Positions 8,961 to 34,077 of a stretch of 64,000 nt of DNA are shown piece by piece (within the stretch, counting starts at the first letter, position 1; every line of letters starts with the position of its first letter). The notes beneath the pieces were generated by a model. It searched no databases and had not been told where the DNA came from. It worked only from the letters and a program-made list of their open reading frames with translations. Origin of the DNA: Betaproteobacteria bacterium UBA2293 (GTDB taxonomy: Bacteria; Pseudomonadota; Gammaproteobacteria; Burkholderiales; Rhodocyclaceae); assembly GCA_002345845.1 (NCBI GenBank), contig DDWF01000196.1, forward strand, positions 5,478 through 69,477, given 5' to 3'. The translations under genes were made by a program, and so were the position numbers.

Positions 8961-8996
8961 TGAGCCGATCGGCCCGGGTGACTGAGCCGATCGGCC
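8961..8996. promoter_or_regulatory. Tandem operator: two 14-bp identical copies 22 bp apart
   Basis: TGAGCCGATCGGCC occurs at 8961-8974 and again at 8983-8996. Each copy contains the 10-bp palindrome GCCGATCGGC. Spacing of 22 bp puts both on the same DNA face. They lie about 205-240 bp before the PEP-CTERM start at 9202 and within 80 bp of the end of epsA. The 285-bp gap 8917-9201 also holds a sigma-54-like element and three CTGTCA words. Confidence 0.7.
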
Positions 8997-9135
8997 TGTC
9001 AAATCACCGCCCTGTCACCCTACCGGGCGTCATCTCAGCCACTCAATCTGTCACTCGTCGACATGGCGGCCTTGGGGCGCTGATCGGGTGAAAAATATTC
9101 CGCCGTTCTGGTGAGCGGACACCCAAAACAGCCCC

Positions 9136-9151
9136 TGGCGAGCATGTGGCA
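9136..9151 (+). promoter_or_regulatory. Candidate sigma-54 (-24/-12) promoter of the PEP-CTERM gene
   Basis: TGGCGAGCATGTGGCA matches the sigma-54 consensus TGGCACG-N4-TTGCA at 9 of 12 scored positions, including the GG-N10-GC core. It would start transcription near 9162, 40 nt before the ATG at 9202. The tandem dyads then fall at about -170 and -195, a usual range for enhancer-binding activators. The PrsK/PrsR-RpoN system is known to control PEP-CTERM genes in related bacteria; neither gene is in this window. Confidence 0.5.
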
Positions 9152-9201
9152 CCCGTCCATTCCGGACCTGTGTTCAATTTTTTCGATAGGGGTTTACACA
9201 T

Positions 9202-10004: not shown

Positions 10005-10032
10005 GGCCACCGGTGCCTTCGCCCCGGTGGCC
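10005..10032 (+). other. Intergenic hairpin between the PEP-CTERM gene and the PstS-like gene
   Basis: Perfect 9-bp stem GGCCACCGG / CCGGTGGCC with a 10-nt loop (TGCCTTCGCC) and no T-run after it. It sits just after the PEP-CTERM stop and before the AGGAGA ribosome site of the next gene. Partial termination or 3'-end stabilisation is inferred from position. Confidence 0.6.
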
Positions 10033-10056
10033 GTCATTCCCTTTCAGGAGAATCCC

Positions 10057-11538: not shown

Positions 11539-11569
11539 AAAAGGCCCGCCTTCCGGCGGGCCTTTTTTT
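11539..11569 (+). terminator. Rho-independent terminator
   Basis: GGCCCGCC (11543-11550), TTCC loop, GGCGGGCC (11555-11562), then seven T. It closes the PEP-CTERM/PstS-like unit and isolates it from the two-partner secretion genes. Confidence 0.92.
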
Positions 11570-11587: not shown

Positions 11588-11603
11588 TAGTCCGATCGGC
11601 GCA
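11588..11603. promoter_or_regulatory. Degenerate dyad of the TGAGCCG-NN-CGGCTCA family before tpsB
   Basis: TAGTCCGATCGGCGCA has a CCGATCGG palindromic core. Its reverse complement, TGCGCCGATCGGACTA, differs at only two positions from the site at 43162 (TGAGCCGAACGGACTA). It lies 59 bp before the chosen tpsB start, closer than the other sites, so repression or direct activation is possible. Confidence 0.4.
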
Positions 11604-11662
11604 TGTTTCGATGACGGCCAAGTCACGGATGGGTCATGTCGTCTGCCCATAATCCGCCGGCC

Positions 11663-13240
11663 ATGCCTATTCCCCGACTCTTCCTGCGGACGGCCGTTGT
11701 CGTCGCCGCGCTGCTTCCCGCCTTTGCCGCCGCCGCCGACAGCTTCGAGCTGCTCGAGTTCGCCGTCGAGGGCAATTCCGTGCTGCCGGCCATCGAGATC
11801 GAACGCGCCGTCTATCCCTCCCTCGGCCCCGGGCGCACGCTGGCCGATATTGAAAAGGCGCGGGCGGCGCTGGAGGCTGCTTACCAGGCCGCCGGTTACC
11901 TGTCGGTGTCGGTGCTGCTGCCCAGTCAGCCGCTGGGCGGGGTCATCCGCCTGGTCGTCGTCGAAGGCGAGGTCGAACGCCTGAAAGTCAGCGGCAATCG
12001 CTATACCTCGCGCAACCAGTTGCGCAGCGAAGTGCCGGAACTGGCGCCGGGTTCGGTGCCGCATTTCCCGACCATGCAGGCCGAACTGGCGCAGGCCGGG
12101 CGCTCGCCGGACCGGCGGGTGACGCCGTTGCTCCGCCCCGGTGCCCGGCCGGGCACCATGGAGGTGGAACTGGCGGTGGAGGACGAACTGCCGGTGCACG
12201 GTTCGCTGGAGCTGAACAACCGGCGCAGCCCGGATACGGAACGGCTGCGCCTGGAAGCCGGTTTGCGCTACACCAACCTGTTCCAGAAGCAGCATTCGGC
12301 CGGCCTCAATTACGTCGTCGCCCCCGAGGATCCGGAGCAGGTCAGCGTCCTCGCCGCCTTTTACAGCTTGCCGCTGGGGCCGCGCACGTCGTTGTCGGCC
12401 TTCGCTCAGTATTCGAACAGCAACATCGCCGCGGCGCTCGGTTCCAACGTCGTCGGCAAGGGCACGACGCTGGGCGCCCGCTTCAGCCTCAGCCTGCCGC
12501 AGGCCGGCGGCAGGCCGGGTTTCTTCCATTCCCTGTCGCTCGGCGCCGACTTCAAGAATCTCGACGAGACGCAGAACGCGCTCGGCGCCGACAGCAAGGA
12601 CACGCCGCTGCGCTACATGCCGCTGGTCGCCCAGTACACCTTCGGCAACTACGGCGAGTCGGCGGAGCTGAGCGGCAATCTCGGGCTGGTCGTCAATACC
12701 GGCAGCCATTCACGGAAGATCGATTGCCAGGGCTATCGTCTCGACCAGTTCGAGTGCCGACGGGCCAATGCCCGGCCGGGCTTCTCGGCGGTGCGCGGTG
12801 ATGTCGGCTATACCGGCCGCTGGTCGGGCTGGGAGGGCTTTGCCCGGCTCGATTTCCAGCTGGCCGGCCAGGCCCTGGTTTCACCGGAGCAGATGCTGCT
12901 CGGTGGTGTGGACAGCGTGCGCGGCTACCTCGCCGGCGAGGCGGCCGGCGATGCCGGCTGGCGCCTGCGTGGCGAAGTGCGCACGCCGGGCCTCTTCGAT
13001 ATTGCGGGCAGCGGCCTGCGCGCCCTGGTCTTCGTCGATCACGGCCAGGTCTGGCTGAACGATGCGCTGCCCGGCCAGGACGAGCGCTTCACGCTGGCCA
13101 GTGCCGGTGTCGGCTTGAGCCTGAAGGGACGGCCGGGCGGCCCGTTGTTCGCCCTCGATCTGGCGCAGACCCTGCGCGATGGACCACGGACCGGACGCGG
13201 CGCCCAGCGCGCGCATTTCCGCCTGGGTTATGAATTCTGA
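11663..13240 (+). CDS. TpsB outer-membrane transporter of a two-partner secretion system (FhaC/ShlB family)
   Basis: 525 residues from the ATG opening MPIPRLFL; the signal peptide ends near AFAAAADS. An in-frame ATG at 11636 is possible but places nine residues before the signal. Two POTRA domains occupy about 25-190 (FAVEGNSVLPAIEIERAVYP, YLSVSVLLPSQPLGGVIRLV, GNRYTSRNQLRSEVPEL). A BamA-like barrel follows with the conserved VRGY motif (GVDSVRGYLAGEAAG) and LVFVDHGQVW. It should export the giant TpsA encoded 30 bp downstream. Two cysteines, about C355 and C365, lie in one barrel-region segment, which is unusual in the family. Confidence 0.92.
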   Translation: MPIPRLFLRTAVVVAALLPAFAAAADSFELLEFAVEGNSVLPAIEIERAVYPSLGPGRTLADIEKARAALEAAYQAAGYLSVSVLLPSQPLGGVIRLVVVEGEVERLKVSGNRYTSRNQLRSEVPELAPGSVPHFPTMQAELAQAGRSPDRRVTPLLRPGARPGTMEVELAVEDELPVHGSLELNNRRSPDTERLRLEAGLRYTNLFQKQHSAGLNYVVAPEDPEQVSVLAAFYSLPLGPRTSLSAFAQYSNSNIAAALGSNVVGKGTTLGARFSLSLPQAGGRPGFFHSLSLGADFKNLDETQNALGADSKDTPLRYMPLVAQYTFGNYGESAELSGNLGLVVNTGSHSRKIDCQGYRLDQFECRRANARPGFSAVRGDVGYTGRWSGWEGFARLDFQLAGQALVSPEQMLLGGVDSVRGYLAGEAAGDAGWRLRGEVRTPGLFDIAGSGLRALVFVDHGQVWLNDALPGQDERFTLASAGVGLSLKGRPGGPLFALDLAQTLRDGPRTGRGAQRAHFRLGYEF

Positions 13241-13270
13241 GGGGCTGCCGATGCCCGGGGGGAGTGCACG

Positions 13271-16200
13271 ATGAACAGCAATCTGTATCGCCTGGTATTC
13301 GATGAGGAGCATGGCAGTTGGGTGCCGGTGGCCGAGCACATCCGCGGCCGCGGCAAGCGGCACACCCGCCGCCGGGCCCTGGCGGCAGCCGTCCTGGCAT
13401 TGGCCATGGGCGCCGCCGAGGCGCAGAGCCGACCACTGCCGGTGCCATCGACGGTGCCTGGTCGCCCCTTCGTCTTCAGCGGCAGCGTCGTCGGCGGGGC
13501 GCCGAGCGTCGTCGGCAACACCATGACCATCAGCACGCCCAGCCGGACGCTGGGGCTGAACTGGGACTCCTTCAATATCGCCAGCAATCACACGGTCAAC
13601 TTCATTCAACCGGATGCCACGTCGCGCGTACTCAACCGCATTTGGTCGGCCGATCCGAGCGTCATCATGGGCCGCCTGGATGCCAACGGTCAGATCTATC
13701 TGATCAACCAGAACGGCATCCTGTTCGGCAACGGCGCCCAGGTGAATGTCGGCGGGCTGGTCGCTTCGGCCCTCAACCTGTCGCCGGAGATGCTCGAACG
13801 CTTGCTCAACCAGGGTCTGCCGGGCAATCGCGGCGACAGCCTGAGCTTCGCCTGGGACGGCGACAATGCCGGCTTTGCCGCCGGTTTCGTCACTGTCGAT
13901 TCGGGGGCGCGCATCGCCAGCGCCGATGGCGGCCGGGTGGTGCTGCTGGCGCCGCGCACGGTGGAAAACAAGGGGACGATCGAAGGCAACGGCATCGAAG
14001 CAATCCTCGCCGCCGGCGGCAAGGTGGTGTTGACCGTACCCGATGACCCCTCCTTGCGCGGCCTGCTGGTCGAAACCGATGCCTTCGCCACGCGCGATGC
14101 GCTCGGCAATGCCGTCAAACTGGACGGCAGCGTCAACCATTCCGGCTCTATCGACGCAGGTAACGGCGGCGTGGTGACGCTGGCGGCCCTCGCCGTCAAC
14201 CAGAAGGGGATGATCAACGCCACCCGGGCGGTCAACCTGAACGGCACCACCATGCTCGTTTCCGGCGAAACGGAAACCAACCGCCTGACCATCCACCAGC
14301 GCGGCAAAAAGGCCGAGATTGACTGGGTTTCGGGATTTTCTGTCGGTGCTGGCAAGACGGTCGAGTTCATTCAGCCGGACAGCGGCTCGGTGGTGTACAA
14401 CTATGTTTACGATGCGGATCGCACGGCTGCCGACGGCAGCTTGCTGAACCGCGCCGGGCGCTCGGTCATCGATGGCATCCTGCGCGCTACCGGCCAGTTC
14501 TTCCTGATCAACGAGCGCGGCGTGCGTTTTGCTGCCGGTGCCGACGTACAGGCAGCGAACGTCGTCGTTTCGGCGCTCGGCGTCAATCCGGCCCTGGTCG
14601 CCAGCGGCCTGTTTGCCATGGATTACGTCGACAAATCCGGAAATGGCCAGCGCGCCTTTTATCTGAACAAGACCCAGTTGTCGGCTGCCTCAGACGCGGA
14701 GTTTGCCGCCCAGGCGGCGGCTGGACAGGCCGCTTTCGACGCGGCACGCATTGATGTCGAGGCCGGGGCGCGCATTGCCGCCAACGTGGACAACGGTCTG
14801 GTCATGCTGTTCGGCGCCGACGTGATGCAGGCCGGGACAGTGACGGCGGACAAGGGGCAGGTGCTGCTTGCCGCCGGTGCGGATGTCTATCTGAAACCGC
14901 CGTTTGCCGCCGGTCTGCGTGGCTTCATGGCCGAGGTCAATCCCCTTTACGTCGTCCGCCGTGATGCCGGCAATGCCTGGAGCGTTGTCGATCACGGCAG
15001 CATCACCAACCGCGGCACCATCGCGGCGGCGCTCGGCAACATTTCGCTGACCGGTTACGACATCGCCCAGCTCGGTACCTTGTGGACCAGTACGTCGGCG
15101 ACGCTCAACGGCTCGATCCGCCTGGTCGCTCGCGACCAGGTGGCGCTTTCCGGCCTGGCCAGCGGCGACGACGAGCCGCCGGTACAGGCCGGCCAACGCA
15201 ACCTCGACGCCGATGGTGTGGCGCCCTATGTCGGCAGCGATTTCTACAATCCGCTGAACAAGGCCGAGCAGCCGGACTTCATCGTCGGCCAGTTCGGTGG
15301 TAGCTTGACTTTCGGCAAGGACAGCGTGACCAAAGTGGCGATCGACGGCAGTAGTGGCAAGACGGTCACCGCCGGGCAGGCTTTCCTGGCCTCCAGCATC
15401 GAGGCGATCGCCCGCCAGATCATTGTCGATGGCGACGGCAGCCGCGGGGCCCTGCTCCAGGCCCAGGGTGGCCACATCGATTTCATGGCCAGCGACCGCT
15501 TCAGCCTGATTCGCGGCTTCATCGGCGACCCGATGGATGCGCCGCAGTCGGCTGCCACTCCGGATGCCGGCGTCGGTATCCATGTCGAAGGCGGCGCGCG
15601 CCTTGACGTTTCCGGTGTCATCGCCAGCAAGTCGGTGGCCGATCTGTTCATGAGCGCTGAACTGCGCGGCGACGAGTTCGCCGGCAACCCGGTACAACGT
15701 ACCGGCGCCCTACGCGGCGAGACGGCGTATGTCGATATCCGGGACAAGGTGGCCATCGCCGATCTTTCCGGATACATCGCCCAGGTCGGGCAGACGGTCG
15801 AAGAGAAGGCAGCGACCGGTGGCAGCATCGCCCTGCAAAGTACCGGCAGCGTCGTCGTCAAGGGGGGCAGCACGCTCGACGTATCCGGCGGCGGTGTCAA
15901 CTACGCGGCGGCGACGGTTACCGAAAGCCGCGTGCTATCGATCGGCGGCCAGAGTTATCGGCTCAACGACGCACCAACGACGGCCATCTACTACGGCTTG
16001 CAGAACATCACGCGCAACGAGGCCGCCTACTACGAAGGGCGCAGTGCCGGCAGCGTGGAAGTCTCCGGCCACAGCCTCGCCGTCGATGGCCACCTGCTGG
16101 CGACGACGACGCGCGGCGTCCGTCAGCGCGAGATCGGCGATCCGCTGAGCAACCATTACGCCTCGCCGCTGGGTGGCCAGTTGATCGTCCGCGACGCCGG

Positions 16201-19200
16201 CCAGCATTTCGTCGTTGGCGACCGCCAGACGGCCAGCGAAGCTGAACGCCTTGCAGCTTATACGCAGGCGCAGATCGCCTTCGTTCGCGGTGCCAGCAAT
16301 AGCGCCGCCGGTCTACAGGCCGGCGATGCCGCCGGTCCGCGCCTGGAGCTGTCGCAATCGCTGGTGGACAACGGTTTCAGCCGTTTCGACCTGCGCAGCG
16401 ACGGGCGTATCGAGATTGCCGCCGATGTCGCGCTCAACCTGCAGCCGGGCGGCAGCTTCAAGGCGGCCGGGCGGCAGCTCGTCGTCGCTGGTGACATCGT
16501 TACGCCGGGCGGCAGCATCGAGCTGACCACGCGCGACATGAGCCTGGCGCCGGGGCTATTCCCGACCGTCGCCGATGCGTCGTTTTCGACCCTGATCCTG
16601 ACCGACGGCGCCGTGCTGTCGACCGCCGGCCGCTGGGCCAACGACGTGCTCGACCGCAGTCTCGCCAGCCGAAAGTTGCTGGCACTCGATGGCGGTTCGG
16701 TGAAGCTCGATTCGGCTTACGACATCGATCTTCGGGCCGGTAGCCGCATCGACGTTTCCGGCGGCGCCCAACTCACGGCCGATGGCAAACTGCTGGCCGG
16801 TGATGCCGGCAAAATCACACTGACCACCGGTGGTATCAAGGCCGCCGGCGCTTTCGCTGCCACCGAGGATCTCGATCGGCGCGATGCCAGTCTCTTCATC
16901 GACGGTACGCTGGCCGGCCAAGCACTGGGCAGCGGCGGCAGCCTGGAGATCAATACCTCGCAGGTCAACGTCGGCAGCGGTACTGTCGTCGACGGGCGCA
17001 GCCTGGATCGGGCCGCGCGTCTGGCCAACGGCCAGGTCGGCATTGCCCTGGCGGCGGATTTCTTTGATCGCGGCGGCTTCTTCGATTTCAAGCTGGTCGG
17101 TCGCGACGGTGTGCACATTGCCGCCGGCACGCGCATCGCGCCGCAGCCATTGAGCTGGACGCTGGACGGCGTCAGCGACTACCGGATGCGGGCGAGCGGC
17201 ACCGCGCTCGGCGCCTTTGCCCGCACCCAGGTACTCCATCCGGACCGGCGCAGCGCCGCCACCAGCCTCGCCTTTGCCACGCGCAGCCTGAACTACGGCG
17301 AGCTGACGGTGGGCGAGGGAGCAACGCTGGCTGTCGCACCGGGCGGCAGCATCGCCCTCGAGTCCTGGGGACAACTGACGGTGCTCGGCACGCTGCAGGC
17401 TAGCGGCGGCACCATCCGCCTGAGCCGGCCGGCGAATCGGATCGATGAGCCCTACAACCGCATACCCATCGAGTACAGTGAAGGCCGCCAGGCCCAGTCC
17501 ATCTACCTGGGCGAGCAGGCGCGCCTGCTAGCCGGCGGCACCACGGTGCTCGCGGCGGATACCCGGCGGGCGCTGGAGGCCGGCATTCCCGCGGCGGTCC
17601 TACGTGCGGGGCAGCGCTACAAGGGCGAAGTGCTGGCCGGCGGCACGGTGGATATCGATGCCGGTCTCGGTTACCTGATCACTCGCGAAGGTTCGCTGAT
17701 CGACGTCTCCGGCGCCACGGACAGCCTCAACGTTGCCGCCGGCAGTGGCAACGGTACCCTGGCCTATCCGCAGGCGACGCTCGGCAGCGCCGGTGGTACG
17801 GTCAGCCTGGCCGCCCGTGAGGGCATGATTCTCGACGGCGAGTATGCCGCCGCCGGGCGCCATGGCGCACCGGCTGGTGCGCTGGCCGTGCATCTCTACG
17901 AAATGGCCAGCAACGCCACCTGGGAGAGCCTCGGCCTGCCCGGCTCGATGCAGGGGCCGCGCAGCCTGACCTTGTTCCAGTCGCTGGCGGGTCATCCGGC
18001 CGCCTGGACGCTGTCTGCCAGCGAGACGGCGCGTTATCTGGCCGGCGAGCATGTTCTCGCCTCCACCGACTATAACGGTCGGGCGGCGCTCGACCTGGCG
18101 CGGGCCGCTGATGGTGGTTTCGGTTCCTGGTATTTGCGCAGCCGCGACGAGATTGTTTTCTCCGGCAACATTGTCGGCGGTGTCGCCAACCAGTTGCAGA
18201 TCAGTGCCCCGGTACTGCGGGCGGCCGACGCAGCCACGCGGATTGACTTGCAGGCAGCAGCCATCCAGCTCGGCAACGCCGCGCCGAGCGGTGCACCGGC
18301 GGCTACGGCGATGGCCGGAGGGGCGACGGCCCGGTTCACGGCACGCGATATCGGTGTCATCGGCAATTTCAGCTGGAACGGCTTTGCCACGACGCAATTG
18401 GTCAGCAGCGGCGAGATCCACTTCGACAGCACCGCCAATTCGGCACCCAACCGCAGTGGTGGTCGCCTGTTCAGCGGCCAGATGACGGCCGCCGGCCGTC
18501 TTGAACTGGCGGCCGCCCGACTTTCGCCATCGACCTACAGTGATTACCGGATTGATCTTTCCAGCGATGCCGGCGGCGAAATCGTCATTTCCCGCCCGGC
18601 TGAGGCCAGCGCCGCCGAGTCGCTGGCCGTTGGTGGCCGCCTGGAGTTTGCCGCGCCCTCGATCACCCACGCCGGTACCGTCACGGCGCCGCTGGGCGAG
18701 ATCGTCTTCAGCGCGCCGGGCGGGCGGGTCGAACTGACGGCTGACAGTGTCACCTCGGTGGCCGGCGGCCGTCTCGCTCTGCTCGGCGAAACCGATCAGT
18801 CCGGACGCTACTGGAAATATGAGTCCGCTTACTGGGATCCGCAGACCGGTACGCTGCGCAGCGCCATTTACGACGTCGAGCGGGCCCCGGCCAAGGCCAT
18901 CGTCGTTGATGCCGCCGACAGCGTCGTCGCGAGTGGGGCGAAGCTCGACCTGTCCGGTGGCGGCGACGCCCTGGCCAGTGAGTTCACTCCCGGCCCGGGC
19001 GGCAAGACAGACATCCTGGCGGCCAGCGACGGTGCCGCGCCGCAGGTCTTCGCCGTACTGCCGGACTGGCAGGGCGCCTTCGCTCCGGTCGATAGCCATG
19101 CCATGGCCTGGTACAACGTGTCGGGCGGTCGCCAGGTCGGCGGCAACTGGCGTTACAGCCCAATTCCCAGCCTGAAGGCGGGCGACCAGGTCTATCTGGC

Positions 19201-22200
19201 CGCCAACGGCAGTGGTCTGGCGGCGGGCAACTACACCTTGCTGCCGGCTGCCTATGCCAAGCTGCCTGGTGCCTATCTGGTCAGCGTCAGCACGCCCAGC
19301 GACAGCGTGGTCGCTGGCGCACGGCCCCAGGCCGACGGCAGTTGGCTGGTCAACGGCAGCCTGCTCGCCCGTAATGCCGACGGGTCGACCAGCGCCTACC
19401 AGCAGGGGACGACGACATTTTCCGTGGCCGGTCAGGCGACTGTCGATGCCCGGGCCCGCTACGAACTGACTTCTCTCAGTCAATTCTTCTTTGACAGTGC
19501 GGGCGCCGTGTTGCCGGGGGATGCCGGTCGCCTGAGTGTGGTCGGCCGCCAGCACCTCACTTTCGATCCGGTCGTCACCGCCATGCGTCAGGCCGAAATC
19601 GCCGCCGCCGATGGGCGCAGCCGGGCCGGTAGCGGCCTGCAGCTCGATCTGGCCGCCCCGCAATTACTGATCGGCGATATCGCGCTGGCGCCGGATGACA
19701 GCTGGTCAGTCATTGATGGCGAGCGGCTGGCCGCCCTCGGGGTCTCCAGCCTGCTGCTCGGTGGCGTCCGCCATGAGGATGGCGGAACGACCCGCATCGA
19801 CACCATCAGCCAGTCCCTGCGCATCGCCAACGACGGTGCGACACAGCCGGCAGCGGCGCTGATCGCACCGGAAATCATGCTGGCCGCCAGCGAGCAGTTG
19901 ACGGTCGATGCCGGTAGCCGCATTGAGGCGGTCGGCGAAGCCGGGGCGCGCAGCCTGGCGTTGAGCGGCGACGGTGCCTTCGTGCGCGTTGCCGAGGGCA
20001 GCCAGGCCGAACTTGAACGAAGCGCCACGCAGCGCCTGGGCGGTGCCCTGACGATCGGCCAGAATGCCGTGCTCGCTGGCCGTTCGGTGATGCTCGACGC
20101 CACCGGCGAGTTGAACCTCGGCGGCGAATTGATGCTCGGTCAGCGGGCGGCCGACGGCAGCCGCACTGGCGGCTCGCTGTCGATCGGTGCGGCGCGCATC
20201 AGCGTGCTCGGCGATGGCGCCAGCGGCGGTAGCGGCCTGGTCCTGCGCGCCGCCGACCTGGCGCGTTTCGCCACGGTCGACCAGTTGCGTCTGGCCAGTT
20301 ATTCGACGCTCGACCTGATCGGTGCCGCCCGCCTCGGGTCGGCCAGTCTGGCCGAACTGGTCATCTCGGCGGCCGGCATCGCCGGCCACGGCGCGGCTGG
20401 CGAGACGGCGCAGATCGCCGCCCGCAGCGTCGTCTTCGCCAACGCCAGCCCACAAGGCTCGGCCTTCGGCAACGCCGCCCTCGGTAGCGGGGCGCTGGCC
20501 GTCAATGCCGAACAGATCACCTTTGCCGACAATGTCGCCGATGCCGAGGCGCGCACGGGCGAACAGACCGGCTTTGCCATCCGCGGCTTCTCCGGTGTCG
20601 ACCTGGCGGCCAGCGGCGATGTCCGTTTCGTCGGTCGCGGCGTCACGCGAATCGACAACGATGTCGCTGCCGGCGGCAACGGCAGCGATCTGGCCCTGCG
20701 CGTCGACACGGCACGGGTGACGACAGTCGGTACGGCCGATCATCTGCTGGTTACGGGTGGCCGGATTGATGTCGTCGGCGGCAGCAGCGGCGGCGCCGAT
20801 ACCGGTTTCGGCGGCGCTCTCGAATTGCGTGGTCGTTCGCTCGAAGTCGCCGGCCGTATCGAAACGCCGGCCGGGCGCCTTTTGCTGACGGCTACCGATG
20901 GTGACGTGAATATCAATGCCGGTGCCCATCTGGCGGCCGCAGGTTATCGCGTCGCCTTCGCCGATACGGCGGCCTATGCCGCAGGTGGCGAGATTCACCT
21001 GAAGGCCGGCCAAGGCGATGTGAACGTTGCCGACGGGGCGACCGTCTCGGTGGCAGCCGCTGCCGGTGGTGGCAATGCTGGCGAGCTTCAGTTGCTGGCA
21101 GAGCAGGGCAAGGTTACCGCCGGGGCCGCTACCTTGCGCGGCGATGCCGCCCAAGGGGCAACGGGCGGTCGCCTGACCGTCGATGCCCGACAACTCGATC
21201 TCGATCAACTGGCCGCCGCCGTGGCGACCGATGGCGAGGGTACGGCCCATTTCGGCGGCGCCTGGGACATCCGGGCACGCAGCGGCGATCTGGCGCTCAA
21301 CCGCACGATCCGTTCCGCCGCGGTGACGGTGGCTGCCGACCAGGGCGGCATCGCCGTCGGTGGCAGCGGCACCATCGACGCTTCCGGTGACAAGGGCGGC
21401 AAGATCGCCCTTTACGGCCGGGATGGCGACGTGGTTCTCGGCGGCCGTCTGCTCGCCCGTGGCGAACAGGTGATCAACGATGCAAACAATGCCGGCACGC
21501 GTGGCCGCGGCGGTGAAGTACTGCTGGCGACCAGCGGCAATGGCCGCGTGCAAACCCTGGCCGGCAGCCTGATTGACGTCGGCGTTGCTGACGGCAGCCT
21601 TGCCGAGGGCGGCAAGGTGATCTTCCGCGCCGACGGCAGCGCCAGCATGGCGACGGCCGACGATCTCAATATTCGTCTGGCCGGCAGCGTACGCGGTGCC
21701 CGCGACGTCTCTGCCGAGCTGGTCAGCCACTACACGGCCTCCGCCTTGCGGTCGACGACGACGGCCGGCACGACGCTTGGCCTGGCGAGCTTGAACAGCC
21801 AGTTGGCAGCCACCTATACGGCCGACGTGATCAACCAGTTGCGTGGCTTCTTCGGTTTCGACAGCGCCGTGCAGCACGTCCGGCCCAGCATCGAGATCGC
21901 CAGCAGCGGCGATTTCACCATCACCAACGACCTCAATCTTGGCACCCTGCGCTACGGCGATCAGGCTGAGGCCGGCACGCTGACCATCCGCAGCGATGGC
22001 GACCTGCTGGTCAACGGCACGGTCAGCGACGGCTTCATCGCCAACGGCAGCAATTCGGCCGTGTCGCGCGATGCGAAACTGGCCACCAGCGGCGACAGCT
22101 GGTCCTATACGCTGGTTGCCGGTGCCGACCAGGGCGCTGCGCGGACCAACGCCACCAAGGACGACGGCTTTGGCGATCTGCAAGTGGCCGAAAACAAGCT

Positions 22201-24622: not shown

Positions 24623-24670
24623 TTTCCCGACAACCCCGACCGATTCCCCAAGAAACCACGAGTACTGTTC

Positions 24671-26404
24671 ATGAAAAAGCGAATCCTTTCCCTGCTGGCT
24701 GTCGCCGGTCTGCTTTGTGCAGGCCCGGCGGCTGCCCAGTCCTTTGCTCCCGACGACTGGGAGCATGCCCGGAAAACGGTGATCGACACCTCGGCCGACG
24801 GGGTGGAGCTGAAACAAGGCGCCGCCCAGGTGCCGATTGCCGTACGCCTGCATTCCGGCAATTTCCCGTTTGCCGAGGCGCGGCCGGATGGCAGCGACCT
24901 GCGCGTTTCCGCTGCCGATGGCAAGACGCCTTTGCCCTTTCATCTGGAGAAGTTCGATGCCGTCAATGAACTGGCGGTGATCTGGCTGCAGCAGCCGAAA
25001 TTGGTGCCGCTGGCGCGCAGCGATGCCTTCCACCTGCATTGGGGCAATGACAAGGCAGAACCGGCCGGCGATGCCAAGGCCAGCTACGACCGGCAGCAGA
25101 CGCTGGTGCTGCATTTCTCGGAAAGCGAGGGGTCGCCGCGCGACGCCACCGCCCACGGGCATCATCCCGGCGAATTTGCGGCACCGCGCGTCGCCGGCCC
25201 GCTCGGCGATGCCCTGCGTTTCGCGGGTGGAGAGCCGCTGGTCGTGCCGGCAGCGCCGGCCCTCAAGCTGGTTGCCGCCAACGGCTTCACCTTCACCGCC
25301 TGGGTCAAGCCGGCGGTCGGCAGCAGTGCCGGGGACGGCCTGCTCTTCGCCCAGGGCGAGGGTGGCCGCGGCCTCAGCCTCGGCCTGCGCGCCGGCAAGC
25401 TGACGGCGACGGCGGACGGCAAGGAAATTGCAGTGGCCACGCAACTGCTTGAGGATACCTGGCAGCACGTGGCGCTGACCGTCATCGGCAGCAAATTGAC
25501 GCTCTACGTCGATGGCCTGGAGGCGGTAGCCGGCGAGGTGGCGCTGGCTGATGTCGAGGGCGACCTGCGCATCGGCGGCGGTTTCCGCGGCGACATCGAC
25601 GAAGTCACCCTGGCGGCCACAGCCCGTTCCAGCGATTACCTGCTCGCCCTTTACGGCAGCCAGCAGCCCGATACGCCGATGCTGAGCGGCGATGCCGAGC
25701 CCGCCGAGGAACTGTCCTACATGAGCATCCTGCTCAGTGCAGTGACTATCGACGGCTGGATCGTCATCATCATCCTCGGCGTCATGTTCGTCATCAGCGT
25801 CATCGTCATGGTCGGCAAGACCCGCTTCCTGGCCGTGGTCAAATCGGCCAACAACCGCTTCATCGATCGCTTCCGCCAGGAGGCTGACCGCCTGCTCGAT
25901 CCGGATACGGCGGAGGCGAAGGCGATGCATGGCGATCCCTCGGTCGTCAACTCGCCGATATATCGCCTGTACGCCATCGGCATCCAGGAAATGGCCCAGC
26001 GTTTCCGTGCTCGCGGCCGCGAGGACGGCCTCTCCGGTGCCTCGCTCGATGCCATCCGCGCCTCGATGGATGCCGGCATGGTGCGCGAGAACCAGCGCCT
26101 GAACAGCCAGATCGTGCTGCTCACCATCGCCATTTCCGGCGGCCCCTTCCTTGGCCTGCTCGGCACCGTGGTCGGCGTCATGATCACCTTCGCGGCCATT
26201 GCCGCCGCCGGTGACGTCAACGTGAATTCGATCGCGCCCGGTATCGCCGCTGCCCTGGTCGCCACCGTCGCCGGTCTTGCCGTCGCCATCCCGGCGCTGT
26301 TTGGCTACAACTGGCTGGCCAGCCAGATCAAGAACGTCTCGGCCGACGTGCAGGTGTTCGCCGACGAGTTCGTGACGCGTGCCGCCGAGCTGTACTCGCG
26401 GTGA
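24671..26404 (+). CDS. DUF2341-LamG-ExbB/TolQ fusion proton-channel protein
   Basis: 577 residues. Signal peptide 1-22 (LLAVAGLLCAGPAAAQ). A DUF2341-like domain at about 30-130 (PIAVRLHSGNFPFAEARPDG) is followed by a LamG/concanavalin-like domain at about 140-330 (FTFTAWVKPAVGSS, TWQHVALTVIGSKLTLYVDG, GDIDEVTLAATARSS). The last 200 residues are a MotA/TolQ/ExbB channel with three membrane segments (DGWIVIIILGVMFVISVIVM; GPFLGLLGTVVGVMITFAAI; AAALVATVAGLAVAIPALFG). Ordinary ExbB is only about 240 residues. The fusion places two sugar- or protein-binding folds in the periplasm on a proton-driven motor. It is co-directional with two exbD and a tonB-like gene, and follows tpsA by 48 bp. Its task is unproven. 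Confidence 0.9.
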   Translation: MKKRILSLLAVAGLLCAGPAAAQSFAPDDWEHARKTVIDTSADGVELKQGAAQVPIAVRLHSGNFPFAEARPDGSDLRVSAADGKTPLPFHLEKFDAVNELAVIWLQQPKLVPLARSDAFHLHWGNDKAEPAGDAKASYDRQQTLVLHFSESEGSPRDATAHGHHPGEFAAPRVAGPLGDALRFAGGEPLVVPAAPALKLVAANGFTFTAWVKPAVGSSAGDGLLFAQGEGGRGLSLGLRAGKLTATADGKEIAVATQLLEDTWQHVALTVIGSKLTLYVDGLEAVAGEVALADVEGDLRIGGGFRGDIDEVTLAATARSSDYLLALYGSQQPDTPMLSGDAEPAEELSYMSILLSAVTIDGWIVIIILGVMFVISVIVMVGKTRFLAVVKSANNRFIDRFRQEADRLLDPDTAEAKAMHGDPSVVNSPIYRLYAIGIQEMAQRFRARGREDGLSGASLDAIRASMDAGMVRENQRLNSQIVLLTIAISGGPFLGLLGTVVGVMITFAAIAAAGDVNVNSIAPGIAAALVATVAGLAVAIPALFGYNWLASQIKNVSADVQVFADEFVTRAAELYSR

Positions 26405-26414
26405 GGGCCTAGTC

Positions 26415-26822
26415 ATGCAGCTGCAGGAAGAAAACCAGCCCTACGACGACATCAACGTGACGCCGATGCTCGACCTGGCCTACGTGCTGCTGGTCATCTT
26501 CATCATCATGACCACGGCTTCGGTCCAGGGCGTCAAGGTCGATCTGCCGAAGACGCAGGCGGTCACCAGCCTGGCCAAGCCGCAGACCAAGGCGGTGACG
26601 GTGGCCGGCAACGGCGATCTGTTCCTTGATGCCTATCCGGTCACCATGGAGCAGCTGGAGACCCGCATCGTCCAGTACAAGGCGGCCAGCCCCCAGTTGT
26701 CCATCGTCATCAAGGGCGATGCCCGGGTGCAGTACGCCCGGGTGATGGAGATCATGGAGCTGCTCAAGCGCAACGACATCACCGACCTCGGCCTCGCCAC
26801 GACGCGGGCCACACCGGGCTAA
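26415..26822 (+). CDS. exbD: ExbD/TolR biopolymer transport protein, copy 1
   Basis: 135 residues from the ATG opening MQLQEENQPYDDINVTPMLD. One N-terminal membrane helix (LAYVLLVIFIIMTTASVQG) carries the conserved Asp (PMLD) that takes part in proton flow. The periplasmic domain has LPKTQAV and VVIKGDARVQYARVMEIME-type ExbD sequence. It starts 10 bp after the ExbB fusion. It works as a dimer inside the ExbB pentamer and transmits proton-motive force. Its first 40 residues are nearly identical to those of the next gene, while the periplasmic halves differ. Confidence 0.92.
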   Translation: MQLQEENQPYDDINVTPMLDLAYVLLVIFIIMTTASVQGVKVDLPKTQAVTSLAKPQTKAVTVAGNGDLFLDAYPVTMEQLETRIVQYKAASPQLSIVIKGDARVQYARVMEIMELLKRNDITDLGLATTRATPG

Positions 26823-26826
26823 GAGC

Positions 26827-27231
26827 ATGCACGTCCAGACCGAATCCAAACCCTACGACACCATCAACGTGACGCCGATGCTTGATCTGGCCTACGTGCT
26901 GCTGGTCATTTTCATCATCATGACGACTGCCTCGGTGCAGGGCTTGTCGATCAGCCTGCCCAAGCCCTCGGCCAAGCCGAGTACCGAGCAGCACGAAATC
27001 CGCATCATCCAGATCCGCGCCGACGGCGGCCTGATGCTCAACGGCGTCGGCGTCTCCGTGGCAGAGCTGGAAAGCCAGCTGAAGGCGACGCTGGCCCGCG
27101 ACCCCAAGGCCTCTGTCGTGCTCAAGGGCGATCCGGCGGTCAATTACGCTCGCGTCGTCGAAGTCCTTGATCTGACCGGGGCCATGGGCATCGGTGCGGT
27201 CGGCCTGGTCACTGCCCGGATCGGCAACTGA
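26827..27231 (+). CDS. exbD: ExbD/TolR biopolymer transport protein, copy 2
   Basis: 134 residues. It shares INVTPMLDLAYVLLVIFIIM with copy 1, including the membrane-helix Asp. The periplasmic domain is different in detail (LPKPSAKPSTEQHEIRIIQI, SVVLKGDPAVNYARVVEVLD). It lies 4 bp after copy 1 and its stop overlaps the next start (TGATG). A tandem pair suggests a heterodimeric stator unit, as proposed for other double-ExbD systems; this is inference. DNA of the first about 80 bp also remains highly similar, pointing to recent duplication or gene conversion. Confidence 0.92.
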   Translation: MHVQTESKPYDTINVTPMLDLAYVLLVIFIIMTTASVQGLSISLPKPSAKPSTEQHEIRIIQIRADGGLMLNGVGVSVAELESQLKATLARDPKASVVLKGDPAVNYARVVEVLDLTGAMGIGAVGLVTARIGN

Positions 27232-27875
27232 TGGCAACGGAAAGCCGTGCCCGCTGGCCCCTGGTGCTTGCCGTCCTGGCCGGCATTGGCGTGCTGGTGC
27301 TGATCGGCTGGGCGGTGTCCGGCCTGTTCGACAGCAAGCCGGTCAAGGTGCGCAAGCAACCGACGGTGACCCTGCTGCCCGACAAGCCGCCGCCACCGCC
27401 ACCGCCGAAGGAGGAGAAGCCGCCACCGCCGAAGGACCTCAAGGAAGCCAAGATCGAGCCGCCAAAGATGGACGCGCCACAACCGGCGCCGAACGAGCCG
27501 CTGAAGATGGAAGGCGCTGCCGGCGATGGCGATGGACCTTTCGCTGCCGGTTCAGTCAGCAGCGACTATGTCGGCGGCAATGTCGGCCTGGGCGGCATGC
27601 AGCAGGGCTTGTACGCCAGCCGCCTGCAACGCCACCTGCAGGAACAGTTGAGCCGCAATCGCCGCTTGCGCGAGGCCGATTACCGCATCGTCGTCCGCCT
27701 GTGGCTGCGCCAGGACGGCTCGATCGAGCGCGCCGAACTGGGGCAGAGCACCGGCAACGAGTCGGTGGACGGCCTGTTGCGCCAAGCCCTGATGCAGATG
27801 CCGCCGATCCGTGAGGCCCCCCCCGACAACGTGCCGCAACCCTGGCGCATCCGCATCACCAGCCGGGGCGCCTGA
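27231..27875 (+). CDS. TonB-like energy transducer
   Basis: 214 residues. An N-terminal membrane anchor at about 10-32 (WPLVLAVLAGIGVLVLIGWA) is followed by a Pro/Lys-rich periplasmic spacer (PPPPPPPKEEKPPPPKDLKE) and a Gly-rich stretch. The C-terminal TonB-type domain is at about 120-214 (LYASRLQRHLQEQLSRNRRL, IVVRLWLRQDGSIERAEL). It overlaps exbD copy 2 and completes an ExbB-ExbD-TonB module. The likely target is an outer-membrane protein encoded nearby, TpsB or the porin at 27908, but I see no TonB box in either and no TonB-dependent receptor plug in the window. Confidence 0.85.
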   Translation: MATESRARWPLVLAVLAGIGVLVLIGWAVSGLFDSKPVKVRKQPTVTLLPDKPPPPPPPKEEKPPPPKDLKEAKIEPPKMDAPQPAPNEPLKMEGAAGDGDGPFAAGSVSSDYVGGNVGLGGMQQGLYASRLQRHLQEQLSRNRRLREADYRIVVRLWLRQDGSIERAELGQSTGNESVDGLLRQALMQMPPIREAPPDNVPQPWRIRITSRGA

Positions 27876-27907
27876 GCCCCACCGAATTCGAAAGCAGAGA
27901 GGACTTC

Positions 27908-29551
27908 ATGAAACCGATGTTCACCCCCAAGCGCCGTCTCATTGCCGGCTTGCTGGCGCTGGCCCTGGTCGGCAACGCAGCGGCCGCCAGCGCCAGCGAT
28001 GAGCGCGAATCGCTGGAAATGCTGCGCGAAACGACGCTCAACCTGATCGACGCCCTGGTCGACGGTGGTGTGTTCACCCGCGAAAAGGCCGATGAACTGG
28101 TCAAGGCTGCCCAGGCCAGCGCCGCCCGGAGCGCTGCCAAGCAGAAAGCGGCGACGCCGGCCACCGTGCGCGTCCAGTACGTGCCGGAAACGGTGAAGAA
28201 CGAAATCCGCGAGCAACTGCGCCAGGAGGTGCTGGCCCAGGCCAAACAGGAACGCTGGGCGGAGCCCAATGCGGTGCCGTCCTGGCTCGATCGCATCAAG
28301 TGGGAAGGCGACCTGCGGCTGCGTTACCAGAACGAAGAGTACGGGGACAGCAACGCCGATCCGCTGGCCTACATTTTTGCAACGCTTGGCGGCACCACCC
28401 GGGCGACCGGATTTCTCGCCGCCGACAACACCCGCGGGACGACGGCCAATACCCAGGATGACCGCGACCGCCTGCGCTTGCGTGCCCGGCTCGGCATGCA
28501 GGCGCGGGTTTCCGAGGAATGGTCGGCGGGCATCCGGCTGGCTACCGGCTCGGAGACCGACCGCGTGTCGACCAACCAGACCCTCGGTCAGGACTTCAAC
28601 AAGTATTCCCTGTATGTCGACCGCGCCTATCTCAAATACGATCCCGCCGAATGGCTTTCCTTGTCCGGTGGCCGGATTCCCAACCCGTGGTTTTCGACCG
28701 ATCTCGTCTGGGACGAGGATCTCAGTTTCGAAGGGGTCGCCGCCACTTTCAAACCGGTCTTCGCCGAAGGTGCCGTGCGTCCCTTCCTGACCATCGGTGC
28801 CTTCCCCATCCGCGAAAGCAATCCAACGGCCTCGGACAGCCGCTGGATGCAGGGTGTGCAGGCCGGCGCCCGGCTCAAGCTCGGTCATCGCAGCCAGCTG
28901 ACCCTCGGCGCCGCCATGTATCGCTTCGATGGTATCGAAGGCGAGCTGGAAGCCGATCCGGCGCTTAATTTCGTGCCCGAGTTCGGTCAGTACGAGTACG
29001 GTCGCGGTCTGCGCCAGAAGGGCAATACCCTGTTTTACACCGACCGCAACCGCACCGATGGCACGGCACCAAATATCTGGGGCCTGGCCTCGCGCTTCCG
29101 CCCGGTCAACCTGACCGCTTCGCTTGATTTGGCCCATTTCGACCCGGTGCACGTGATCCTGACCGCCGATTACGTCAAGAACACCCAGTTCGACCGCGGC
29201 GAAATGCAGCGCCGCACCGGCCTGAGCATCACCGACGGCAAGGATTACGGCTACCAGTACCGGCTGACCGTCGGCATGCCCAAGCTGGAGAACCTGCACG
29301 ACTGGCAGGCCAGCTTCTCCTACCGCTATCTGGGTTCGGACGCCGTGCTCGACGCCTTCACCGATTCCGATTTCGGTCTCGGCGGCACTAACCTCAAGGG
29401 CTACCAGATCGGCTTCCAGTACGGCGTGCAGCAGAACGCCTGGCTGGGTATGCGCTGGCTCTCCGCCGAATCGATCGATTCCTTCGCTCCCAACACCAGT
29501 TACCGCTATGCGGTCGATGTTCTGCAGGCTGACGTCAATGTGCGCTTCTAA
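27908..29551 (+). CDS. Putative outer-membrane porin with N-terminal helical periplasmic segment
   Basis: 547 residues. Signal peptide 1-28 (LIAGLLALALVGNAAAASA). Residues about 30-115 are helical and charged (ESLEMLRETTLNLIDALVDG; KADELVKAAQASAARSAAKQ), as in 'putative porin' family proteins. A beta barrel follows, rich in alternating aromatics (DLRLRYQNEEYGDSN, FSYRYLGSDAVL), ending in the C-terminal Phe (VNVRF) that signals BAM-dependent insertion. It lies 32 bp after the tonB-like gene with an AGAGAGGA ribosome site. It could be the passive or TonB-linked outer-membrane channel of this cluster; the solute is unknown, although phosphate-related genes nearby make anions worth testing. Confidence 0.85.
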   Translation: MKPMFTPKRRLIAGLLALALVGNAAAASASDERESLEMLRETTLNLIDALVDGGVFTREKADELVKAAQASAARSAAKQKAATPATVRVQYVPETVKNEIREQLRQEVLAQAKQERWAEPNAVPSWLDRIKWEGDLRLRYQNEEYGDSNADPLAYIFATLGGTTRATGFLAADNTRGTTANTQDDRDRLRLRARLGMQARVSEEWSAGIRLATGSETDRVSTNQTLGQDFNKYSLYVDRAYLKYDPAEWLSLSGGRIPNPWFSTDLVWDEDLSFEGVAATFKPVFAEGAVRPFLTIGAFPIRESNPTASDSRWMQGVQAGARLKLGHRSQLTLGAAMYRFDGIEGELEADPALNFVPEFGQYEYGRGLRQKGNTLFYTDRNRTDGTAPNIWGLASRFRPVNLTASLDLAHFDPVHVILTADYVKNTQFDRGEMQRRTGLSITDGKDYGYQYRLTVGMPKLENLHDWQASFSYRYLGSDAVLDAFTDSDFGLGGTNLKGYQIGFQYGVQQNAWLGMRWLSAESIDSFAPNTSYRYAVDVLQADVNVRF

Positions 29552-30125
29552 GCTACTTACCTTGCTGCTCGCCGCCGTTATGGCCGGCTTGCCCGTCGTC
29601 GCTGCTGCCCAGCAACCGGCCGATGCCAACAAGGCGCAGCTGCGCCGCCTGCAACAGGTGCAGCGTCAGTTGCAACAGGAAAAGCAGCAATTGAGCACTG
29701 ACAAGGCACGCATCGAGTTGGAACTCGAAAGCAGCCGGAGCCAGGCGGCTGACGATGCGCGGCGGGCGGCGGGCCTCGGTCGCGAGGTGGCCAGCCTGCG
29801 TAGCCGGGAAAGCGAATTGAGCGCCCGGGTGGCGAGGCTGGAAGCCGATCTGGCCGCCGCTCAGGAGCAGCTGCGTAGCAGTGGCGCCGAAAATCGCCAG
29901 TTGCAGGCGCAGCTGGGCGAACGCACGCAGCAGCATGCCGCGTGTACGGCGCAGGTCGCCGGCTTGCGCGAAACCGGGACGGAAGTGCTGACGCTCTACG
30001 AGAACAAGGGTTGCTTCGATGCCCTCCGCCAGCGTGAGCCGCTGACCGGCCTGGGCCGGGTCGCCGTCGAGAACGCTGTCGAGGATTTGCGCGACCGTCT
30101 GGCCAACGACACGTCGCGGCCATGA
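29538..30125 (+). CDS. Periplasmic coiled-coil protein of unknown function
   Basis: 195 residues from the ATG opening MCASKLLTLLLAAVMAGLPV. The signal peptide ends near AAA/QQ. Residues about 25-145 form a long, heptad-rich coiled coil (LRRLQQVQRQLQQEKQQLST; LEADLAAAQEQLRSSGAENR). A C-terminal region with two cysteines (ACTAQ, GCFDAL) follows. The start overlaps the porin stop by 14 bp and its end overlaps the CAAX protease start (ATGA), so it is translationally coupled to both. It could act as a spacer or adaptor between inner and outer membrane parts; this is inference. Confidence 0.8.
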   Translation: MCASKLLTLLLAAVMAGLPVVAAAQQPADANKAQLRRLQQVQRQLQQEKQQLSTDKARIELELESSRSQAADDARRAAGLGREVASLRSRESELSARVARLEADLAAAQEQLRSSGAENRQLQAQLGERTQQHAACTAQVAGLRETGTEVLTLYENKGCFDALRQREPLTGLGRVAVENAVEDLRDRLANDTSRP

Positions 30126-30820
30126 TTGCCGGCGTCACTGCCAAGCCGTTCGCCATCGGCCCGGCTGCCGCCCGCCTGCTGCCATTTGCCGCCTTCATCG
30201 GGCTGATGATGGCGGAGCCGCTGCTGGCCGGCCTGCTCGGCGAGCGGTTCGACCCGCGCTGGCTTTACGGCCTGCGCAGTGGGGTGGCGGCGCTGCTCCT
30301 GCTGCTCTTCTGGCGCCATTACGAAGAGCTGCACGCGGTGCGCTGCCGGCCGGCGGCGCTGCTGCTGACCGCGCCATTGGCCGGTCTCGGTGTGCTGATC
30401 GTCTGGCTGACACTGGATGGCGGACCTTTCGTCCTCGGGGGCGGCGGTTCGGGTTTCGTGCCGCTGGCCGCCGACGGCAGCCTGCTGTGGCCGCTAGCTA
30501 TCGTCCGCTTGCTCGGTTCGGCCCTGGTCGTACCCTTGATCGAAGAGCTGTTCTGGCGTTCGCTGGTGATGCGCTGGCTGGAGCGCAGCGATTTTGCCAC
30601 CCTGGCACCGGCGGCAGTCGGCCTGCGAGCGGTGCTGCTGTCGAGCCTCGCTTTCGGCTTTGAGCACAGTCTGTGGGCCGCCGGTATCGTCGCCGGCCTG
30701 GTCTATGCCTTGCTCTATCGGCGCACCGGTTGTTTGTGGTCAGCAGTCGTTGCCCATGCGGTGACCAATGGCAGTCTGGGTCTCTGGGTCTTGTACGCCG
30801 GTGCCTGGCAGTACTGGTGA
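30122..30820 (+). CDS. CAAX prenyl protease-related (CPBP) membrane protease, PEP-CTERM-associated type
   Basis: 232 residues with about seven hydrophobic segments. The CPBP/Abi catalytic motifs are intact: EELFWR (E141, E142, R146), FGFEHS (H182) and HAVTN (H212, N216). A related family is repeatedly found with exosortase systems, where its substrate is not established. It overlaps the coiled-coil gene by ATGA, so it belongs to the ExbB/ExbD/TonB/porin transcript. It may process a lipid-anchored or membrane component of that module. This is the last gene before an intergenic gap of 69 bp. Confidence 0.88.
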   Translation: MIAGVTAKPFAIGPAAARLLPFAAFIGLMMAEPLLAGLLGERFDPRWLYGLRSGVAALLLLLFWRHYEELHAVRCRPAALLLTAPLAGLGVLIVWLTLDGGPFVLGGGGSGFVPLAADGSLLWPLAIVRLLGSALVVPLIEELFWRSLVMRWLERSDFATLAPAAVGLRAVLLSSLAFGFEHSLWAAGIVAGLVYALLYRRTGCLWSAVVAHAVTNGSLGLWVLYAGAWQYW

Positions 30821-30889: not shown

Positions 30890-31609
30890 ATGACCGAATC
30901 GGCCAAGCCCATGTCCGCACGAATACTCCTCGTTGAAGATGAACCGGACGTCAGCGAGCTGATCCTGGTCAACCTGCGGCATGCCGGCTTCGTCGTCAAT
31001 GCGGTAGACGATGCCGAAAAAGCCTGGAAGCTGCTGCGTGAGGAGCGGCCGGAAGCCGTCTTGCTCGACTGGTTGCTGCCGGGGATGTCGGGCTTCCAGC
31101 TGATCCGTCACATGCGCGCCGACCAGCGTTGTCGCGAGGTGCCGGTCATCATGCTGACGGCACGCAGTGCGGAGGTCGACAAGATTGCCGCCCTCGAGGC
31201 GGGCGCTGACGACTACGTGACCAAACCGTTTTCGCCGCGCGAACTGGTTGCCCGCGTCAAGGCCGTGCTGCGCCGTCGCGACGCCAAGTCGGTCGACGAG
31301 GGTGTCGAGCTGGGCGGTCTGCGCCTGATGCCGCACACGCGTAAGGCGCTGGCCGGCAAGACGCCGATCGTTCTGGGACCCACCGAGTTCCGCTTGCTGC
31401 ATTTCCTGATGACACACGCCGAGCGGGTGCACAGCCGCGGACAGCTGCTGGATTATGTCTGGGGTGGCCGTCTGCACATCGAAGAGCGTACGGTCGATGT
31501 GCATATCCGGCGCCTGCGCTGCGTTCTCGAGGATCACCAGCTGGACGCCATGGTGCAGACGGTGCGCGGCATTGGCTATCGCTTTTCGACCGGGCCCAGC
31601 GACGCCTGA
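30890..31609 (+). CDS. PhoB/OmpR-type response regulator (orphan)
   Basis: 239 residues; ATG after CGGAGG. Receiver domain about 8-125: acidic pocket VEDEPD, phosphoacceptor Asp in AVLLDWLLPGMSG, and the TKPFSPRELVARVKAVLRR end. The winged-helix DNA-binding domain occupies about 140-235 (LGPTEFRLLHFLMTHAERVH, ERTVDVHIRRLRCVLE, TVRGIGYRFS). It is close to PhoB in layout. No histidine kinase is next to it or elsewhere in the window. Winged-helix regulators of this family bind 11-bp direct repeats, as found before the secretion operons, making it the obvious candidate for them; this is inference. A second in-frame ATG at 30911 lacks a ribosome site. Confidence 0.92.
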   Translation: MTESAKPMSARILLVEDEPDVSELILVNLRHAGFVVNAVDDAEKAWKLLREERPEAVLLDWLLPGMSGFQLIRHMRADQRCREVPVIMLTARSAEVDKIAALEAGADDYVTKPFSPRELVARVKAVLRRRDAKSVDEGVELGGLRLMPHTRKALAGKTPIVLGPTEFRLLHFLMTHAERVHSRGQLLDYVWGGRLHIEERTVDVHIRRLRCVLEDHQLDAMVQTVRGIGYRFSTGPSDA

Positions 31610-34066: not shown

Positions 34067-34077
34067 GCGCGCCCGGC

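Follow-up and report, generated by a model that had tools for sequence, protein, structure and literature searches.

In Pseudomonas aeruginosa the sigma-VreI regulon comprises the Hxc type II secretion system (T2SS), pdtA, pdtB, exbB2, exbD2, tonB4, PA0696 (a putative outer membrane porin) and PA0697, according to the sections of two papers that deal with it (PMC2729926, PMC7035377). The operon requires PhoB, which binds promoters there (PMC4971064), and PdtA, PA0696 and PA0698 are reported among the most enriched proteins under phosphate limitation (PMC9769906). The association of two-partner secretion (TPS) genes with ExbBD and PA0696 in other genera was already recorded in 2009 (PMC2729926), and a 2020 paper calls the P. 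aeruginosa TonB system "still uncharacterized" (PMC7035377). Here we describe a locus of similar gene order in a stretch of 64,000 nt, called the window in the following, from Betaproteobacteria bacterium UBA2293 (GCA_002345845.1, contig DDWF01000196.1, positions 5,478-69,477). It encodes a TPS pair with a giant exoprotein, TpsA, that bears the domain DUF3739, followed by an ExbB fusion, ExbD, TonB and a porin. A sequence-only reading of the window had put this locus forward as its best candidate for an undescribed system. This does not hold, because papers of 2009-2020 had already described the corresponding P. aeruginosa locus and reported that it is conserved in further genera (PMC2729926, PMC7035377). 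At the level of sequence comparison the parts of the module, their order and their near-obligate co-occurrence are established.

Layout of the locus

The block at 11636-30820 consists of nine genes, all on the plus strand, which overlap or are separated by no more than 48 bp (open reading frames, ORFs, checked against Pfam and NCBIfam). The co-directional block of the sequence-only reading is thus real, though it holds nine genes and not the eight counted there:

11636-13240, plus strand: tpsB, 534 amino acids (aa); ShlB (74 bits) and POTRA_2 (50 bits), both above cut-off
13271-24622, plus strand: tpsA, 3783 aa; ESPR, TPS domain and C-terminal DUF3739
24671-26404, plus strand: ExbB fusion, 577 aa; DUF2341 (34.8 bits), Laminin_G_3 (56.8 bits) and MotA_ExbB (99.3 bits)
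26379-26822, plus strand: exbD1, GTG start; PF02472 (92 bits)
26827-27231, plus strand: exbD2; PF02472 (93 bits)
27231-27875, plus strand: tonB; TonB_2 (28.8 bits, cut-off 22)
27908-29551, plus strand: N-extended porin; Porin_5 (E 1e-170)
29508-30125, plus strand: coiled-coil protein with signal peptide and conserved C-terminus
30122-30820, plus strand: CPBP protease; TIGR03008 (195.6 bits, cut-off 81)

The pair belongs to two-partner secretion (type Vb), with a TPS domain on TpsA and POTRA and ShlB barrel domains on TpsB, whose closest solved relative is CdiB (6wim, E 3.2e-11). The start of tpsB may instead be the ATG at 11663, because the signal peptide fits that start (by eye). For exbD1 an in-frame ATG at 26415 marks the start of the conserved part.

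Conservation of the block

We compared the best 80 of at least 248 confirmed loci with an ExbB fusion, a biased sample as the loci were picked by similarity to the ExbB of the window. ExbD was found in all 80 loci, TonB in 79, the porin in 77 and the coiled-coil protein in 73. The order ExbB-ExbD(1-3)-TonB-porin-coiled coil was kept in 70 loci, and tonB and the porin gene were directly adjacent in at least 75. A TPS gene lay at most 400 bp upstream in 64 loci and elsewhere in the locus in 8. None was seen in the remaining 8 (L012, L026, L042, L043, L047, L051, L064 and L068), and in L012, L043, L051 and L068 less than 3.6 kb of contig is present upstream. The proteins nearest to the ExbB fusion share at most 95% identity with it and come from Betaproteobacteria, the named ones being mostly of the Rhodocyclaceae type. 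Four loci (L023, L071, L076 and L078) carry the module on contigs labelled Verrucomicrobia or Spartobacteria, possibly owing to transfer or to a binning error.

The CPBP protease, which had been counted as part of the block, turned out to be peripheral. It is present in just 9 of the 80 loci and accompanies EpsL, as all 6 loci with EpsL have it, and we rejected it as a core part. It seems to belong with the XrtB/PEP-CTERM parts, which in the window (EpsA regulator, PEP-CTERM protein and EpsL) are found at 8143-9996 and 31646-32860.

Since the loci had been picked by similarity, we asked for co-occurrence genome-wide in two less biased samples: 274 genomes from the class of a Rhodocyclaceae metagenome-assembled genome and 190 from the class of a Methylosinus. 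Among the 274 genomes, DUF3739 scored above cut-off in 18, DUF2341 in 24 and full-length Porin_5 in 19. The last is a class of our own (match over profile positions ~1-535 with at least 460 bits), and 18 further genomes show partial matches only. All 18 genomes with DUF3739 also have the full-length porin (Fisher 2.8e-27) and 17 of them have DUF2341 (Fisher 1.3e-20), where both values ignore shared ancestry. G231, with DUF3739 below the cut-off, was excluded from the 18. When the seed genomes are removed, the overlap is 16/17 for DUF2341 and 17/17 for the full porin. In the sample of 190 genomes the same 3 carry DUF3739, DUF2341 and the N-extended Porin_5, counting as N-extended the porin of G368, whose match stops at profile position 306 because the contig ends there; without the seed genome the overlap is 2/2. 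The DUF3739 genome without a DUF2341 match is G208, in which DUF3739 sits at a contig end. In G109 the frame that matches DUF2341 has 1632 aa, is on another contig and may encode a different protein. The matches to DUF3739 and DUF2341 co-occur even where they are 14-24 kb apart (G018, G144 and G257).

Rare co-occurrence of the TPS pair with the ExbB-TonB-porin block had been named as the result that would speak against a common system. We found a ratio of nearly 1:1 instead, for DUF3739 TpsA only. TPS domains occur in 94 of the 274 genomes, and 78 of these are without DUF3739 above the cut-off. Only one of the 78, G112, has the full porin, together with DUF2341 in a 620-aa frame. As the full porin is nearly absent from these genomes, the motor accompanies one class of TpsA, that with DUF3739, and not TPS in general. 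Chance neighbourhood is rejected by the conserved order in the loci and the genome-wide co-occurrence. The linkage is genuine and goes far beyond mere neighbourhood, and we are highly confident that the block forms one functional unit.

Two side observations concern the same genomes. G127:C3, G144:C1 and G158:C3 each hold another DUF2341 frame in addition to the first, which at 587-645 aa is about as large as the ExbB fusion. In G018 (L089/L119/L120) tpsA is flanked by the ExbB fusion and the porin, with a broken PhoX-like stretch between the fusion and tpsA.

The motor

The ExbB fusion is composed of a signal peptide, DUF2341 (residues 73-159), LamG (196-321) and a TolQ/ExbB part (about 350-575). 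In the AlphaFold2 model (mean predicted local distance difference test 89.3) two beta domains are followed by the TolQ/ExbB helices, with a low-confidence hinge at 343-349 in between. Both fold and sequence matches identify the periplasmic head as a jelly roll of the ConA/LamG type. The top fold matches, with tied Z, were clostridial neurotoxin complex proteins and the arabinanase AbnA, which was also the best sequence-profile match (E 2.8e-11). We rejected a reading of the neurotoxin-complex matches as toxicity, the jelly roll being a shared and often deposited fold.

Alignment to solved TolQ and ExbB showed that the two transmembrane threonines are kept in the fusion. It also located one replaced residue:

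26249-26251, plus strand: Ala527 of the ExbB fusion, at the site of the conserved glutamate in transmembrane helix 3 (TM3) of ExbB/TolQ

We take this site to correspond to E176 of E. coli ExbB. Of the 39 fusions aligned, that of the window included, 38 have Ala here and one has Gly (alignment A4, which took in 39 of 81 fusions). The transmembrane motif of ExbD with its Asp is present in 117 of 118 ExbD ORFs (100-240 aa, from the loci and the window).

Candidate contact motifs in TpsA and the porin

The C-terminus of TpsA contains the following features:

24101-24427, plus strand: DUF3739, residues 3611-3719; 109 bits, cut-off 27
24539-24559, plus strand: tail motif LLTVEVL, residues 3757-3763; family motif, typically FLTVEVLGFG
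24563-24598, plus strand: cysteine pair C3765 and C3776, read from the sequence

In the relatives a low-complexity linker leads to the strand-like motif, which is as a rule followed by a charged tail. A strict regular expression was too narrow (33 of 58 tails matched), so we used a trained profile. When the profile was tested by split halves, 48 of the 56 module tails outscored all 17 control tails. The controls were TpsA proteins without DUF3739, four from module genomes and two near-identical, that remained after 3 of 20 fetched tails had been dropped for running off the contig. Taken separately, the two half-models placed 22/28 and 26/28 held-out module tails above all 17 controls; the first missed the variant NLLLEFLGFG found in several Burkholderiales, with which the second did better. 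The 3783 residues of the window TpsA include two cysteines in total, both within the last 20. The sequence TAAG, a protease site in TpsA proteins of the CdrA type, is present in it as well and is not conserved among the relatives.

In the window TpsB, POTRA1 begins directly after the signal peptide (domain match and inspection by eye), so that neither a TonB box nor a plug helix would fit at its N-terminus. No plug helix is visible ahead of POTRA1, and we ruled out a TonB box because this TpsB has no free N-terminal segment (by eye). In its relatives linkers are present, which differ in length and are often A/P-rich (by eye). Given the lack of N-terminal space in TpsB, the TpsA tail and the porin appear likelier as targets of TonB.

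The porin models as a barrel of 16 strands (counted from the model) with N-terminal helices and without a plug. A plugged 22-strand TonB-dependent receptor was not found within the operon, whose outer-membrane protein is this unplugged porin. Its N-terminal extension carries a motif behind an A/P-rich linker, with the family form VRVPYVPExVK:

28166-28189, plus strand: porin motif VRVQYVPE, residues 87-94, from the porin alignment

In alignment A3, which took in 47 of 78 porins, Y91 is conserved in 47/47 sequences and R88 and P93 in 43/47 each. The motif was found in 18 of the 19 module porins of the genome sample, compared to none of 11 short Porin_5 porins. The loci of the latter were drawn from the 18 genomes with short matches only, and one (L105) starts at a contig end and is without its N-terminus. 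Both linear motifs are module-specific and adjoin low-complexity linkers. Foldseek places OmpM1, MOMP, PorB, chitoporin and AlgE over OprO, all at low identity. We therefore rejected an identification as a phosphate porin, and the fold does not reveal the ligand. In the Sulfuricella locus L018 a gene for an ankyrin-repeat protein (14428-15177) stands between the porin and coiled-coil genes. The window also has an ankyrin-repeat protein near the module (7294-8136).

Phosphate context and neighbouring genes

Two genes adjoin the block on its two sides:

10027-11493, plus strand: PstS-like substrate-binding protein, secreted or periplasmic, 488 aa; nine-sequence profile
30890-31609, plus strand: PhoB-type response regulator; TIGR02154 (311 bits, cut-off 296)

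The PstS-like gene directly upstream of tpsB was missing from the parts list of the sequence-only reading. As a single sequence its product gave no match to solved structures. The nine-sequence profile (A5) matched solved phosphate-binding proteins with a best E of 9.3e-8, and most matches were so named. The motif RxxGSGT, which we take to be the phosphate site of PstS, is kept in 9/9 aligned proteins. A homologue is present in 11 of 22 module genomes, and in 9 of the 11 it immediately precedes TpsB and shares its strand. In a tenth (G158) the homologue and TpsB are both near contig ends. The gene also stands beside TpsB in L015 and L022. Between the PstS-like gene and tpsB we noted a GC-rich hairpin with a T-run at ~11543-11569 (by eye).

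Type II secretion genes flank the block at 3630-7247 (secretin, pseudopilins) and 33626-38750 (GspG, GspF, GspE and a weak GspM). A PhoX alkaline phosphatase is encoded at 43295-45469 (Pfam, 547 bits), and sugar-polymer genes (glycosyltransferase-like, flippase-like) are found at 48131-57949. Within 10 kb of the block, PhoX occurs in 3 and GspE in 6 of the 80 loci. A PhoB-like gene occurs in 10, a number based on a profile of our own build that may take in other response regulators.

Proposed mechanism and alternatives

Beyond the linkage itself, the mechanism is what we infer. TpsB would export TpsA by the ordinary two-partner route. The C-terminal tail of TpsA would remain in the periplasm, in the window probably pinned by the two-cysteine hook, and display the conserved strand motif LLTVEVL. 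There it could be gripped by the lectin-like DUF2341-LamG head of the ExbB/ExbD proton motor, and in the N-extended porin TonB would dock onto the conserved segment VRVPYVPE. In this way the motor may couple the fibre to the porin and either move a captured ligand or alter the tension or release of the fibre. The ligand would probably be phosphate or a phosphorylated compound, with the PstS-like protein handing it on. We put forward the full contact map only tentatively. It is likewise conceivable, short of probable, that we are dealing with a proton-driven two-partner system, in which the fibre is an energised capture-and-transfer or retraction device and not a passive adhesin, and for which DUF3739 marks the class. 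The best explanation overall, a surface module akin to PdtAB-ExbB2D2-TonB4-PA0696 in a phosphate-scavenging setting, comes close to an even chance. The two concrete peptide motifs make the proposed mechanism testable.

Several observations weigh against such a module. The TM3 glutamate kept by ExbB and TolQ is missing from the motor, and therefore its proton coupling is unproven. The cysteine pair of the TpsA tail is present in a subset of the relatives and is not universal. Furthermore DUF2341 is not confined to the module, as 7 of the 24 genomes with DUF2341 are without DUF3739 (in five of the seven the match lies in frames of more than 1000 aa). The best Pho box site upstream of the window tpsB was not significant (p 0.24) and pooled Fisher values in the relatives were 0.067 upstream of ExbB, 0.47 of TpsA and 0.55 of TpsB, so that Pho box control of the window operon is unsupported. 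A second PhoB is near the module in 2 of 22 genomes only, and PhoX near the module is rare among the relatives' genomes. In zebrafish, P. aeruginosa transposon mutants in tpsA, tpsB, tonB (PA0695) and PA0696 were as virulent as the wild type (PMC2729926), and the motor is thus without a phenotype in this assay. Finally, according to a review, in vitro reconstitution of TPS translocation succeeded with no energy supplied (PMC5422565).

The first alternative is that TonB energises the porin alone. TpsA would then be an extracellular capture scaffold without contact to the motor, and the ligand would pass from TpsA to the porin and on to the PstS-like protein. The position of the porin gene directly after tonB in at least 75 of the 80 loci fits this explanation. 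So do the porin motif, which is among the most conserved parts of the N-terminal extension and absent from all 11 short porins, and the PstS-like gene that belongs to the set. However, the modelled barrel is an ordinary 16-strand unplugged porin and not a TonB-dependent receptor. The conserved tail motif of TpsA is left unexplained, and so is the presence of DUF2341 with DUF3739 throughout the 464 genomes apart from G208 at its contig edge (with G109 doubtful). We regard this alternative as somewhat unlikely.

It is less likely still that the motor directly drives or completes the secretion or release of TpsA, acting through TpsB or on the emerging TpsA tail. Such an energised TPS would account for the tie between the motor and a single TpsA class and for the tail motif, and no plug helix is seen ahead of POTRA1 in the window TpsB. 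On the other hand, inspection by eye did not reveal a TonB box in TpsB. TonB is not known to take part in the export of FHA-type proteins, which are of similar size. TPS translocation has also been documented without energy input (PMC5422565).

Lastly, the genes could be mere neighbours with phosphate-starvation or biofilm functions that a shared regulon keeps side by side, with no physical coupling between them, as joint sigma-VreI/PhoB control in P. aeruginosa (PMC2729926, PMC4971064) and T2SS, PhoX and PhoB in the same window might suggest. This is improbable given that PhoB-like, PhoX and GspE genes are rarely retained within 10 kb of the block in the 80 loci and that motor, porin and DUF3739 TpsA co-occur even where the DUF3739 and DUF2341 matches are 14-24 kb apart.

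Comparison with known systems

The window resembles the PUMA3/sigma-VreI locus of P. aeruginosa in the order TpsB-ExbB-ExbD-TonB-porin-next protein, in the nearby T2SS and in the phosphate setting. It differs in having two ExbD genes, tpsA behind tpsB in one run, the PstS-like gene upstream and CPBP and PhoB downstream. The likeness is one of gene order, as compared with published descriptions. No vreAIR-like genes were seen among the scanned subset of the window ORFs. Genes of the vreA-ECF sigma-FecR type are present in L132 and L133, and a FecR gene also in L058.

The module is also carried on plasmids alongside sigma-factor regulators. A K. quasipneumoniae plasmid encodes a homologous ExbB fusion (36.8% identity over 97% of the query) in the order VreA-like, ECF sigma, DUF4880, TpsA, TpsB, ExbB fusion, ExbD, TonB, porin, hypothetical, YbjN, peptidylprolyl isomerase (PPIase), hypothetical, LysR. 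This plasmid shares the order of the P. aeruginosa locus, on through YbjN, PPIase and LysR. A Methylosinus plasmid shows a similar arrangement with a substrate-binding gene after tpsA. Judged by these arrangements, the plasmid copies appear to connect the family of the window to the P. aeruginosa locus. The loci L131, L133 and L134 are on Klebsiella and Cupriavidus plasmids, in L133 near arsenic genes and insertion sequences.

With the classical TonB-ExbB-ExbD system the motor shares the protein families, the two transmembrane threonines and the ExbD aspartate. Unlike that system it has a periplasmic DUF2341-LamG head, Ala in place of the TM3 glutamate and an operon porin rather than a plugged receptor. 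On the Exb/Tol-type A subunits of generic ion transporters, DUF2341 has been described as an N-terminal appendage whose function is unknown (PMC12505986). The sections of that paper on DUF2341/DUF3450 heads do not mention TPS or a porin, and "LamG" and "laminin" are absent from its main text. In HxuCBA of H. influenzae, too, a TPS pair shares its operon with an outer-membrane protein for uptake (PMC5422565), but this protein, HxuC, is a TonB-dependent receptor, and none of the three genes encodes a motor. The C-terminal cysteine pair and TAAG of the window TpsA recall retained TpsA proteins of the CdrA/HMW1 type, and CdrA has a cysteine hook (PMC7616799). In contrast to that type, TAAG is not conserved in the relatives, the cysteines occur in a subset only, and DUF3739 and the strand motif are extra.

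Compared to the literature searched in one open-access library, the new elements are the linkage specific to DUF3739 TpsA, the tail motif of TpsA, the N-terminal motif of the porin and the loss of the TM3 glutamate in ExbB. TPS has been described as a secretion route that uses no energy source, and the known role of TonB motors is to drive plugged receptors. DUF3739 TpsA, which we hardly ever encountered without its own TonB-type motor and unplugged porin, matches neither picture. The orphan TonB4/ExbB2 of P. aeruginosa gains candidate clients and two short peptides, and DUF3739, DUF2341 and the N-extended Porin_5 gain a shared context.

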